Assembly (NCBI GenBank): GCA_947642475.1
Contig: CANRSQ010000007.1
Span: 1 to 37,947 of the forward strand
Reading direction: 5' to 3'
Source: an uncultured Mycoplasmatota bacterium
GTDB lineage: Bacteria; Bacillota_I; Bacilli_A; RF39; UBA660
Length of the DNA stretch: 37,947 bases
Part shown: one piece after another, positions 2,474-24,471 of the stretch
Numbering within the stretch: the first letter of the stretch is position 1
How the letters are laid out: each line of letters begins with the position of its first letter
Position numbers and translations under genes: made by a program
The notes under the pieces: generated by a model
What the model saw: only the letters and a program-made list of their open reading frames with translations
What the model was told of the DNA's origin: nothing
Databases searched by the model: none

Positions 2474-2502
2474 TTGACTAATAAAAAACATTAATATATA
2501 TT
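2474..2502 (+). promoter_or_regulatory. Promoter of cassette A peptide mRNA
   Basis: TTGACT (2474-2479), 17-bp spacer, TATATT (2497-2502). The predicted start near 2509 gives a leader of about 74 nt. Both boxes and the spacer length are identical in cassettes B and C. Immediately upstream are several A/T tracts spaced on average about one helical turn apart, which could bend DNA or act as an UP element. Confidence 0.85.
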
Positions 2503-2582
2503 AATACCCACGGAAACATTGTAACCGCTATTGGTGTCTACCTGTCTTTATTCGAAAGAATTCAAAGGGAGGTTATGTGCTT

Positions 2583-2660
2583 ATGTCAAAAAAGGATTGC
2601 TTAATCGCTTTATTGATTATAATCATAATTTTATTGATTCTATTTCCGAGAGGAATTTAG
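2583..2660 (+). CDS. 25-aa hydrophobic peptide, candidate type I toxin (cassette A)
   Basis: The ORF starts M-S-K-K-D-C-L-I and ends F-P-R-G-I. Nearly all residues between 7 and 21 are Leu, Ile or Ala, so it should form one short membrane helix. AAGGGAGG (2565-2572) lies ten bases before the ATG. An ATG at 2575 in another frame stops after nine codons and is not favoured. The N-terminal pattern M-x-K-K-D-x-L-I followed by a run of Ile is shared with the 27-aa peptides of cassettes B and C. Size and composition match membrane-acting type I toxins such as Fst, Ibs or TisB as classes, but the sequence is not one I recognise. Confidence 0.75.
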   Translation: MSKKDCLIALLIIIIILLILFPRGI

Positions 2661-2697: not shown

Positions 2698-2794
2698 AAA
2701 AAAAGACATCTAGCTTAAAGCTAAACGTCAACCCAACTAGGGTAGACATTGATATGTTACAATGTTTCCCTTTTTTATGAGGAAATCCCTCATT
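2698..2794 (-). ncRNA. Predicted antisense RNA of cassette A (candidate antitoxin)
   Basis: On the minus strand, TTGAAA (2829-2824), a 17-bp spacer and TATATT (2806-2801) predict a start near 2794. The RNA would begin with a GAGG / CCTC hairpin, run through the complement of the + terminator region, and end at a wobble-containing 10-bp stem (2729-2705, loop TTTAA on that strand) followed by seven T's (2704-2698). At about 97 nt it is complementary to the 3' part of the peptide mRNA, as in 3'-overlapping type I pairs such as BsrG/SR4 or TxpA/RatA. Confidence 0.65.
2740..2776 (+). terminator. Terminator of cassette A peptide mRNA, also fold-back arm
   Basis: GGG-TAG-ACATTG pairs with CAATGT-TT-CCC around a small internal loop and is followed by TTTTTT. 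Its GGTAGACA (2741-2748) and GTTACAATGT (2756-2765) segments are also perfect complements of the leader segments 2535-2542 and 2516-2525, so the 3' end can form either the terminator hairpin or a 5'-3' closure. Confidence 0.75.
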
Positions 2795-2858
2795 AATTAA
2801 AATATACCATATATAAATAAATATTTCAACAAATTATTTATTATTTTTTCAAAAGTTA

Positions 2859-6347: not shown

Positions 6348-6441
6348 AATTACCAAATTTCAATTTCTGCATAAAAAAAACACGCAAAATTCCCAAATCT
6401 GTACATAAAAAATTCCCAAAAAACGAATTTTGTAAAAACCA

Positions 6442-6470
6442 TTGACTAACTAAAACCATTAATATATATT
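6442..6470 (+). promoter_or_regulatory. Promoter of cassette B peptide mRNA
   Basis: TTGACT (6442-6447), 17-bp spacer, TATATT (6465-6470); conserved with cassettes A and C, including upstream A tracts. Confidence 0.85.
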
Positions 6471-6555
6471 AATACCCACGAAAACATTGTAACCGCTATT
6501 GGTGTCTACCTATTTATTTTGGGGGTTTTGGTCTCAAAATAGGAGGTTTGATATT

Positions 6556-6639
6556 ATGACAAAAAAAGATTTCCTAATCCTAGTATTGCTTATAATTATC
6601 ATTTTATTAGTTGCTCTTCTTTGGAAGAGTCTTAATTAA
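6556..6639 (+). CDS. 27-aa hydrophobic peptide, candidate type I toxin (cassette B)
   Basis: Starts M-T-K-K-D-F and ends L-W-K-S-L-N, with an uninterrupted hydrophobic core from residues 6 to 23. AGGAGG (6541-6546) lies nine bases upstream. A 7-bp stem (TATTTTG / CAAAATA, 6515-6540) abuts that ribosome-binding site and may limit access. The protein sequence is identical to the cassette C peptide, although the genes differ at synonymous positions (TTC CTA versus TTT TTA), so the peptide appears to be under purifying selection. Its cognate antisense promoter now lies beyond a 1.35-kb IS. Confidence 0.8.
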   Translation: MTKKDFLILVLLIIIILLVALLWKSLN

Positions 6640-6672
6640 TAGAGAAAGACACCCCAACTGAAGTGATACAAT

Positions 6673-6714
6673 AAAAGTAGACAAAGAGAAAAAACACTTT
6701 AGTCTACTTTTTTT
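6673..6714 (+). terminator. Hairpin at IS left end that shields against read-in
   Basis: AAAAGTAGAC (6673-6682) pairs with GTCTACTTTT (6702-6711), followed by more T's. It would terminate the cassette B peptide mRNA, which lacks its native terminator in cis after the insertion. Confidence 0.7.
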
Positions 6715-6742
6715 GATACAATATTTGTAAGAAGATGATATA

Positions 6743-7105
6743 ATGGGAAGACCAAAAGGTGGAAAAAATGTAATGAGAACACCTGAAGAAAAAGAAAAAA
6801 TTTTACTAGAGTATTTAATAAATCATAAACCGCTGACAGAAATAAGCAGTGAATACAATATAAATTTGCGATTATTAAAGAGATGGAAAAAGAAATATTT
6901 AGAGAATGGAATAGAAGGATTACAATCACTATCAGGAAAACAATCAAAAGGTAGACCTAAAAAAACATTAACTAGAGAAGAAGAATTAGAATTGAAAATA
7001 ATGAAGTTAGAAATTGAGAATGAACGATTAAAAAAAGGTTATATAGTGAAAGGAGATGGGGCTGCAAAGGAATACGTTACTACATTAGACAAGAATACGA
7101 AATAA
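6743..7105 (+). CDS. IS3-family transposase OrfA
   Basis: 120 residues. Starts M-G-R-P-K-G-G-K-N, followed by a helix-turn-helix (about 20-60: L-T-E-I-S-S-E-Y-N-I-N-L-R-L-L-K-R-W-K-K-K-Y), a basic linker, and a leucine-zipper-like helix (about 82-104). It binds the IS ends. Near its 3' end is the heptamer A-AAA-AAA followed by G (7030-7037), a classic -1 frameshift site. OrfB is in the -1 frame and open from 7024, so the expected active product is an OrfAB fusion. Confidence 0.9.
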   Translation: MGRPKGGKNVMRTPEEKEKILLEYLINHKPLTEISSEYNINLRLLKRWKKKYLENGIEGLQSLSGKQSKGRPKKTLTREEELELKIMKLEIENERLKKGYIVKGDGAAKEYVTTLDKNTK

Positions 7106-7113
7106 TTGATAAT

Positions 7114-7962
7114 TTGAAAAATAAATATTCGATAACTGAATTATGCAAAATAATGAAAGTAAGTAAATCAGGATATTATAAATGGAAATACAGGAAAGAT
7201 AATCCAAGCATTAAAGAAATATCTAGACAAACTGAAATTAATTTAATAAAAGAGGTTCATAAGGAACATCCATCTCATGGATATCGATGGATAAATTCTT
7301 TTATTAGAAACAAATATGGTGTATTTATGACAGATAATCATGTTCACCTATGCTGCAAGTATGAAAACATACGCTCACAAGGAAAACATTATCAATGGAA
7401 AAAACCAGGTGAAGAACAACAAAAATTTAATAATTTGGTATGGAATGGTTGGAAATATTTATCTAGACCGTTCGAGGTCATTGTTTCCGATATGACTTCA
7501 TTTTGGGTAAAAGGTACCTATTACGAATTAACTTTATATTTTGATGCATGGAATAAAGAGATTGTTGGTTATGGATTAGCTTCTAGGAAAGGAGCTATAT
7601 CATCATATTATGATGGCTTAAATCAAGTTCTTAATCGCATAAAAAAAGAACAAACTGAAGATTTGATTATTTTGCATACGGATCAAGGTTCAGTTTATTC
7701 GTCTGCGAGTTATAATAAACTCATTGAAGATTATAACATAGAACGTTCGATGAGTCGAGCTGGTACACCTACAGACAATCCAGTTAATGAATCATTAAAT
7801 GGCTGGATTAAGGAAGAATTAATGATTGATTTTAATTTAAAGAAATGTGATAATGTCCCAAAACTTATCGAAGAATATATTTATTATTACAATAATGAAA
7901 GACCATCATGCGCGTTAAATTATAAAACCCCAATTCAATATAAAATTGAATCAGGGTTTTAA
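7114..7962 (+). CDS. IS3-family transposase OrfB (DDE integrase domain)
   Basis: 282 residues if begun at the TTG at 7114, but the frame is open upstream from 7024 and gives the conserved R-Q-E-Y-E-I-I-D-N-L-K segment, so it is probably made as a fusion by -1 slippage at 7030-7036. After a small helical domain (S-G-Y-Y-K-W and H-G-Y-R-W-I) comes the rve catalytic core with D in V-S-D-M-T-S-F-W, D in H-T-D-Q-G-S-V-Y and E in N-E-S-L-N-G-W-I-K-E-E. All three catalytic residues are present. The ORF ends exactly at the start of the right inverted repeat. Confidence 0.93.
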   Translation: MKNKYSITELCKIMKVSKSGYYKWKYRKDNPSIKEISRQTEINLIKEVHKEHPSHGYRWINSFIRNKYGVFMTDNHVHLCCKYENIRSQGKHYQWKKPGEEQQKFNNLVWNGWKYLSRPFEVIVSDMTSFWVKGTYYELTLYFDAWNKEIVGYGLASRKGAISSYYDGLNQVLNRIKKEQTEDLIILHTDQGSVYSSASYNKLIEDYNIERSMSRAGTPTDNPVNESLNGWIKEELMIDFNLKKCDNVPKLIEEYIYYYNNERPSCALNYKTPIQYKIESGF

Positions 7963-8003
7963 AAGTGTTTTTTCTCTTTGTCTACTTTTATTGTATCACT
8001 TCA

Positions 8004-8088
8004 ACAGGAGTGTCTTCTCTATTCAACCAATAGGGTAGACATTGATATGTTACAATGTTTCCCTTTTTTATGAGGAATATTCCTCACT
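8004..8088 (-). ncRNA. Predicted antisense RNA of cassette B, now running into the IS
   Basis: Minus-strand promoter TTGTAT (8123-8118), 17-bp spacer, TATATT (8100-8095) predicts a start near 8088, beginning with the perfect palindrome GAGGAATATTCCTC. Only 85 nt remain before the IS right end, so the RNA would continue antisense to the end of orfB; its 3' end is unknown. The listed span covers the cassette-derived part only. Confidence 0.5.
8033..8069 (+). terminator. Orphaned terminator / fold-back arm of cassette B
   Basis: GGG...ACATTG pairs with CAATGT...CCC, followed by TTTTTT; identical to cassettes A and C. It is now separated from the cassette B peptide gene by the IS. Confidence 0.75.
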
Positions 8089-8128
8089 AAATATAATATA
8101 CCACATTCCCCAAAAATATACAATAGGT

Positions 8129-23986: not shown

Positions 23987-24013
23987 TTCTGTCTTAACAG
24001 AATTTCTTTTTTT
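23985..24013 (+). terminator. Terminator of the flavoprotein operon
   Basis: AATTCTGT / ACAGAATT with loop CTTA, then TCTTTTTTT. It directly abuts repeat cassette C. Confidence 0.85.
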
Positions 24014-24086
24014 GCATAAAAAAAACATGCAAATTTCCTAAATCTGCACATAAAAAATCCCCAAAAAAGGAATTTTGTAAAAACCA

Positions 24087-24115
24087 TTGACTAATAAAAA
24101 ACATTAATATATATT
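24087..24115 (+). promoter_or_regulatory. Promoter of cassette C peptide mRNA
   Basis: TTGACT (24087-24092), 17-bp spacer, TATATT (24110-24115). Start predicted near 24122, giving a leader of about 79 nt. A/T tracts centred at about 24021, 24033, 24041, 24054, 24065, 24073 and 24081 lie upstream. Confidence 0.85.
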
Positions 24116-24200
24116 AATACCCACGGAAATATTGTAACCGCTATCGGTGTCTGCCTATTTATTTTTGGGGTTTTGGTCTCAAAATAGGAGGCTTGATATT

Positions 24201-24284
24201 ATGACAAAAAAAGATTTTTTAATCCTAGTATTGCTTATAATTATCATTTTATTAGTTGCTCTTCTTTGGAAGAGTCTTAATTAA
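24201..24284 (+). CDS. 27-aa hydrophobic peptide, candidate type I toxin (cassette C)
   Basis: M-T-K-K-D-F start, Leu/Ile/Val core from residues 6 to 22, W-K-S-L-N end: one predicted membrane helix with a charged N-terminus. AGGAGG (24186-24191) lies nine bases upstream, directly after the 3' strand of a TATTTTT / CAAAATA leader stem. Protein-identical to the cassette B peptide. The expected role, by analogy with Fst-, Ibs- and BsrG-type peptides, is membrane depolarisation held off by an antisense RNA; no function is proven by sequence. Confidence 0.8.
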   Translation: MTKKDFLILVLLIIIILLVALLWKSLN

Positions 24285-24285
24285 T

Positions 24286-24321
24286 AGAGAAAGACACCCC
24301 CAGAACAGGAGTGTCTTCTCT
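24286..24321. other. Stem-loop between peptide gene and terminator
   Basis: AGAGAA-A-GACAC pairs with GTGTC-TTCTCT, one bulged A, plus inner C-G pairs. It has no T run on either strand (ATTAATTAAG follows on the minus strand), so termination of the antisense RNA here is uncertain. In cassette A the corresponding position holds a different hairpin with a seven-T run for the minus strand. Confidence 0.6.
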
Positions 24322-24333
24322 AACACAAACTTA

Positions 24334-24370
24334 GGGTAGACATTGATATGTTACAATGTTTCCCTTTTTT
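24334..24370 (+). terminator. Terminator / fold-back arm of cassette C
   Basis: GGG...ACATTG / CAATGT...CCC followed by TTTTTT, identical in all three cassettes. Confidence 0.75.
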
Positions 24371-24471
24371 ATGAGGAAATTTCCTCACTAAATATAATAT
24401 AACACATTCCCAAAAAATATTCAATTAGAAGAAATAAAAAACATTTTCTAGCTTTATTTTAAAAGGCATGA

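Follow-up and report, generated by a model that had tools for sequence, protein, structure and literature searches.

Multi-copy peptide cassettes with a helix-closed mRNA and a predicted 3' antisense RNA: a candidate type I toxin-antitoxin family of uncultured gut Bacilli

The DNA analyzed here is a stretch of 37,947 nt from an uncultured Mycoplasmatota bacterium (contig CANRSQ010000007.1 of assembly GCA_947642475.1), which is referred to below as the window. It carries copies A, B and C of a short cassette, each with a peptide ORF placed between a leader and a 3' arm that are complementary to one another. Cassette C, whose mRNA presumably starts near 24122, is laid out as follows.

24087-24115, plus strand: sense promoter (-35 TTGACT at 24087-24092, 17-nt spacer, -10 TATATT at 24110-24115)
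24125-24155, plus strand: 5' fold-back arm (outer GGAAATATTGTAAC at 24125-24138, CGC bulge at 24139-24141, inner TATCGGTGTCTGCC at 24142-24155)
24186-24192, plus strand: Shine-Dalgarno (SD) sequence AGGAGG followed by C; its GGC can pair with leader GCC (24153-24155)
24201-24284, plus strand: peptide ORF, MTKKDFLILVLLIIIILLVALLWKSLN
24286-24321, no strand assigned: post-stop hairpin, on the minus strand the likely terminator of an antisense RNA
24335-24363, plus strand: 3' fold-back arm (inner GGTAGACATTGATA at 24335-24348, outer GTTACAATGTTTCC at 24350-24363)
24365-24370, plus strand: T6 run adjoining the 3' arm, the likely mRNA 3' end
24396-24424, minus strand: antisense promoter (-35 TTGAAT at 24424-24419, 17 nt, extended -10 TGT-TATATT at 24401-24396)
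24285-24389, minus strand: predicted antisense RNA of about 105 nt with three hairpins (fold z = -5.6)

The features of cassette A are these.

2474-2502, plus strand: sense promoter, TTGACT-17-TATATT
2512-2542, plus strand: 5' arm (outer 2512-2525, bulge 2526-2528, inner 2529-2542)
2567-2573, plus strand: SD sequence GGGAGG followed by T; its GGT can pair with leader ACC
2583-2660, plus strand: peptide ORF, MSKKDCLIALLIIIIILLILFPRGI
2698-2729, minus strand: antisense terminator (in the minus-strand sequence, a stem-loop and then T7)
2741-2769, plus strand: 3' arm (inner 2741-2754, outer 2756-2769)
2801-2829, minus strand: antisense promoter, TTGAAA-17-TGG TATATT

In cassette C, the two arms form a 28-bp helix composed of 14 bp, a 3-nt CGC bulge and another 14 bp, which is wider than a preliminary description of this DNA had stated, and the same 28-bp fold-back with a 3-nt bulge is found in A. 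The arm pairs previously given for A (2516-2525 with 2756-2765 and 2535-2542 with 2741-2748) are correct in their letters and coordinates, as are the C arms ATATTGTAAC (24129-24138) and TGTCTGCC (24148-24155), in which two leader changes yield the pairs U24130.G24358 and G24153.U24337. C carries a third leader change as well, T to C at 24145, and all three relative to A (C-G to U.G, A-U to G.U and U.G to C-G) leave the pairing intact. The helix closes both ends of the predicted C mRNA fold (24119-24370; -81.3 kcal/mol, z = -6.4), a stability that was equaled in 0 of 200 shuffles. The sequence GTTACAATGT is present five times in the window, compared with 0.08 expected occurrences.

Cassette B has the same components, distributed around an insertion sequence.

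6442-6658, plus strand: 5' part of the cassette (promoter, leader arm, peptide ORF at 6556-6639 and half of the post-stop hairpin)
6659-8003, plus strand: IS3-like insertion sequence with 24-bp terminal inverted repeats TGAAGTGATACAATAAAAGTAGAC and HTH and rve transposase ORFs
8034-8062, plus strand: 3' arm, cut off from the leader by the insertion
8095-8123, minus strand: antisense promoter, TTGTAT-17-TGG TATATT

The arms of B had been described as exact complements. Their letters stand, but the insertion places leader and 3' arm about 1.5 kb apart, and one A.C mismatch lies near the helix end. Since it is split at 6659-8003, B is a broken copy and contributes weak evidence. The insertion sits between the ORF and the 3' arm, and promoter, SD and ORF are retained. 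With its own antisense target and 3' arm displaced, B may rely upon antisense RNA from near-identical copies, or it may be silent.

The cassettes in the window belong to a larger family, of which we examined approximately 190 members from uncultured gut Bacilli. The host genome (1.1 Mb in 73 contigs) encodes nine: eight clear copies and, on contig C21, one more that belongs to a second sequence type. DNA matches were obtained in 27 of 36 genomes of the genus, the window's own included, several of them with tandem copies. A search pattern of an SD followed by M-x-KKDFL matched at least 116 further contigs, nearly all from uncultured Bacilli or Mollicutes and mostly from gut samples; Candidatus Onthousia and Candidatus Coprosoma are among the matches listed. 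In an even sample of the class, the strict pattern was found in 9 of 395 genomes, 8 of which belong to the window's own family. Tandem cassettes lie roughly 350-450 bp apart in rows of two or three and have similar, non-identical peptides and arms (L091, L093 and L094 in one array on one contig; L127 and L128; L084 and L087). An A-rich stretch, TTTCTGCATAAAAAAACACGCAAATTT..AAATCTGCACAAAAAA, is located upstream of cassettes (2398-2470, 6365-6438 and 24010-24083 in the window; also listed at L012, L013, L016, L017 and L019-L022), and part of it also stands alone as a dispersed repeat, often at contig ends. Contig C11 of the same genome carries another kind of cassette that shares this shape (L010, approximately 1530-1840). 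Its leader GAGGCGG..CTAGGTAAAACCTCC is able to base-pair with GGAGGTTTGGCCTAG..CCGCCTC on the 3' side, and a possible TTG-start peptide, MEYLIILVVILVLLRDTPSKK, lies out of frame with an overlapping ATG ORF that has its own SD, an arrangement that recalls mok/hok. An apparent remnant of this kind on contig C19 (L011, approximately 1400-1480) consists solely of a promoter and GAGGT...ACCTC. No relative of the cassettes was found in viral, phage or plasmid collections; the sole viral-contig match was discarded as an unrelated 60-aa ORF. An Rfam search returned only tRNAs at the gathering score and nothing credible up to E = 1. Our literature search recovered no paper describing this family, which may nevertheless already be listed in T1TAdb.

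The helix is supported by the coevolution of its arms. Among 48 non-redundant cassettes, cognate arms paired with a mean of -39.3 kcal/mol compared with -26.9 kcal/mol for swapped arms, and none of 20,000 permutations was as good. A second set of 69 cassettes from the pattern scan, which overlaps the first by a few members, gave -38.0 versus -28.8 kcal/mol. When 34 members of the window's sequence type were aligned, 97.0% of pair cells were kept paired, changes occurred on both sides in 13 of 35 pairs, and there were 88 doubly changed cells, whereas shuffles gave 24.5 and slid versions no more than 18; the stem of the post-stop hairpin covaries in this alignment as well. The second sequence type has quite different arms (for example, GGAATGTTCGATAGTTGGGTGG with CCGCCCAACATTGCAGTATTGAACGTTCC) and carries its internal loop on the opposite side. 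The predicted probability of the fold-back helix was 0.91, a value to be read as an average, since the arm finder takes a neighboring helix in some rows. With two mostly-GU columns left out, there are 68 GU pairs and 10 AC pairs. This bias puts the helix in the sense mRNA, because a helix in a minus-strand RNA would produce the reverse. The preliminary description had argued for an mRNA helix over a DNA-level repeat and had proposed a covariation test over many homologous cassettes; the arm swaps, pair counts and GU bias all agree with it, and the covariation came out strongly and was found again in further genomes. As far as sequence can tell, the leader-3' arm helix is real, resides in the sense RNA and is under selection. 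One could otherwise regard the arms as a DNA-level inverted repeat that bounds a small mobile element and plays no role in RNA, as might be suggested by the dispersal of the cassette in multiple copies. Coevolution of the arms, with internal loops, and the excess of GU over AC rule this out, and the repeated unit also reaches past the arms to the promoter and ORF; we give this view next to no credence.

All but a few cassettes encode a hydrophobic M-x-KKDFLI peptide of about 18-32 aa. Among the pattern matches listed, 122 of 126 have an ORF of no more than 45 aa, and most of these are hydrophobic M-x-KKDFLI peptides. Across 132 distinct ORFs, F6, L7 and I8 are nearly invariant and changes are concentrated in third codon positions, a pattern indicating that the peptide is under codon-level selection; the KKD was itself the basis on which these ORFs were chosen, and its conservation thus reflects selection of the set. 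Searches with five peptides identified no Pfam or NCBIfam family above cut-off, while one peptide exhibited a weak, sub-threshold resemblance to Prli42 (E = 0.049; 13.4 bits versus a cut-off of 27.5). This resemblance, together with a conserved KKDFLI head suggestive of a specific partner, would suit a regulatory or structural membrane peptide under antisense control rather than a toxin. We consider such a role unlikely, as small size, hydrophobicity, tandem and dispersed copies, an antisense RNA and mRNA closure constitute the usual package of a type I toxin. A strong SD preceding a short hydrophobic ORF, as expected of type I toxin-antitoxin systems, is likewise present.

The second half of such a system, an antisense gene overlapping the mRNA, is predicted from sequence signals only. 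The minus strand has a promoter of the sigma-A type shortly beyond the 3' arm, with an extended -10 and a 17-nt spacer. The strict motif TT[GT]-17-TGnTAnnnT is present on this strand in 67 of 93 non-redundant cassettes, compared with 2.3 expected and with 8 when the plus strand of that stretch is scanned, and it is missing in the remaining 26. The distance from this promoter to the 3' arm is mostly about 10 or 31-36 nt. Between the 3' arm and the antisense -10, some cassettes have and others wholly lack a block of approximately 21-25 nt that comprises the T-run and the 5' hairpin of the antisense RNA, and its presence moves the spacing from 10 to 31-36 nt (L069, L070, L076 and L095 are among the cassettes concerned). 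At the other end, a minus-strand terminator 3' of the stop codon is found in 92 of 96 cassettes, compared with 11.6 expected; the post-stop hairpin can be assigned this function because an A-rich run precedes it on the plus strand. Together, promoter and terminator would delimit the antisense RNA of about 105 nt predicted in C. This gene was absent from the preliminary description, and its inclusion likely changes the regulatory logic of the cassette.

How the helix might affect translation is suggested by the last three bases of the leader arm, RCC, which can pair with GGY at the SD as well as with the 3' arm. Across 68 non-redundant cassettes, a leader A is invariably accompanied by T at the SD and likewise at the 3' arm (13:0 each), whereas leader G occurs with C or T (Fisher p = 4e-6 and 1e-6 at the two partner sites, statistics that ignore phylogeny). 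The covariation of RCC with its two possible partners, the 3' arm and the GGY next to the SD, suggests a switch; weighing against this reading, the G-with-T combination would fit either partner. In folding predictions, the cost of opening the SD is 4.5-4.7 kcal/mol when the helix is present and 6.0-6.8 kcal/mol when it is absent. Blocking the 3' arm makes opening costlier by about 2 kcal/mol, with the SD harder to open in 72 of 96 cassettes and easier in 7. With the geometry held fixed, blocking the arm costs 1.5 kcal/mol, whereas a control block costs 0.6 and substitution of a foreign 3' arm 1.1. In cassette A, the effect of the block is negligible (+0.3 kcal/mol). The predicted effect of the switch is modest, since both states leave the SD largely paired (unpaired 0.27 versus 0.17, again read only as averages).

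These predictions bear directly upon the comparison with hok that had been drawn for this fold-back. If the cassettes functioned like hok or AapA, the closed mRNA would be an inert stable form, 3' trimming would activate it, and the antisense RNA would neutralize trimmed or new mRNA. The 5'-3' geometry is indeed that of hok, AapA1 and AapA3, where 3' truncation activates; the AapA3 mRNA is inert when closed by its long-distance helix (PMC6733600). The closed cassette mRNA is, in addition, very stable, and a local hairpin also holds the SD. Direct hiding of the SD by the fold-back is not supported by the folds, in which the SD is slightly easier to open with the fold-back than without it, and removal of the 3' arm is predicted to tighten the SD even when judged against the control block. 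Furthermore, the antisense RNA covers the 3' UTR, so trimming would take away part of its target. Inhibition of the hok type is the main rival, and we rate it as somewhat improbable. The helix could also serve mainly to protect the mRNA ends from exonucleases, or as a long-range terminator before a T-run, with translation control as a secondary matter. In many cassettes the helix adjoins a T-run of at least 5, whereas a subset (e.g. L069 and L076) keeps the helix without one, and the covariation of RCC with GGY at the SD would be left unexplained; we regard this as an improbable alternative. The related claim that the 3' arm doubles as a terminator is correct only in part, as the arm's local hairpin is clear in A without being a general feature (mean z = -0.95), and several cassettes have no T-run.

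The reading we favor, and consider probable, is that the cassette is a chromosomal, multi-copy type I toxin-antitoxin-like module with a helix-closed mRNA and a 3' antisense RNA. The sense promoter would produce the mRNA of a short membrane peptide, likely a toxin, and this mRNA would close on itself through the leader-3' arm helix, the step for which coevolution provides the evidence. Transcription from the minus-strand promoter past the 3' arm would stop at the post-stop hairpin and give an antisense RNA (about 105 nt in C) with full complementarity to the 3' UTR of the mRNA. Since this RNA is the complement of the 3' arm, its 5' part has leader-like sequence, making it a competitor of the mRNA leader for pairing with the arm. 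From covariation and folding we suggest, with low confidence, that the long-distance helix may capture the leader RCC and loosen the SD, and that antisense RNA taking the 3' arm might leave the leader to strengthen the masking of the SD. Stated generally, the antitoxin RNA may mimic the leader, with the freed leader folding onto the SD and stopping translation; the helix would then signal the absence of antitoxin, the reverse of hok and AapA, a possibility that we advance with reserve. There is precedent in bsrG, in which SR4 binding at the mRNA 3' end lengthens the stem at the RBS and increases its sequestration (PMC4147584). The mRNA/antisense duplex could also be a substrate of RNase III, by analogy with TxpA, YonT and BsrG, and YonT/SR6 offers a precedent for duplex degradation (PMC5848175).

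If this reading is correct, the cassettes represent an apparently undescribed type I toxin-antitoxin family in small-genome, uncultured gut Bacilli, reaching about a dozen copies in a genome as well as tandem arrays, encoded by genes so short that annotation skips them. They also furnish a large natural covariation set for 5'-3' mRNA closure, which is known from few systems, and offer a reading of such closure other than as an off-state, one that can be tested.

Several known systems share parts of this design. The par/Fst modules of Gram-positive plasmids similarly have convergent promoters and a small hydrophobic peptide. Their shared repeats are direct and give complementary RNAs, whereas those of the cassettes are inverted, making leader and antisense RNA alike, so that they compete for one arm. 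Like hok/Sok, the cassettes encode an mRNA whose 3' end is folded back onto the leader; the position of the antisense RNA differs, and homology to Hok is not established, as the peptides have no Pfam match. The fold-back of the hok mRNA is conserved by covariation as well, according to Gultyaev et al. 1997 as cited in PMC6733600. The antisense RNAs of the AapA/IsoA systems overlap the 5' region of the toxin mRNA, whereas the predicted promoter and terminator in the cassettes bracket the 3' UTR only. Coevolution and folding otherwise point to the same long-distance 5'-3' interaction in the full-length mRNA, and the cassettes further resemble AapA1 and AapA3 of Helicobacter in having a short peptide mRNA, local SD-masking hairpins, a cis antisense RNA (predicted here) and several copies per genome (PMC6733600). 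They differ in that their helix is predicted to loosen the SD and not to sequester it, and no database link was found for the peptide. With bsrG/SR4, txpA/RatA and yonT/SR6 of Bacillus subtilis, the cassettes share a convergent antisense RNA over the 3' end of a small membrane-peptide mRNA (PMC4147584, PMC5848175), as judged from promoter and terminator signals. They are distinct in the conserved leader-3' arm helix, which shares an arm with the antisense target, in peptides that have no family match, and in not having been found on phages or plasmids. Membership in hok, AapA/IsoA or TxpA/BsrG/YonT is thus not established, since each shares one feature with the cassettes (closure for hok and AapA/IsoA, the 3' antisense RNA for TxpA/BsrG/YonT) and departs in another, be it peptide relation, antisense position or SD masking. 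The best reading of these parallels is that the cassettes represent a new type I toxin-antitoxin family, one that would combine a long-distance helix like that of hok and AapA with a 3' antisense RNA like that of TxpA and BsrG.
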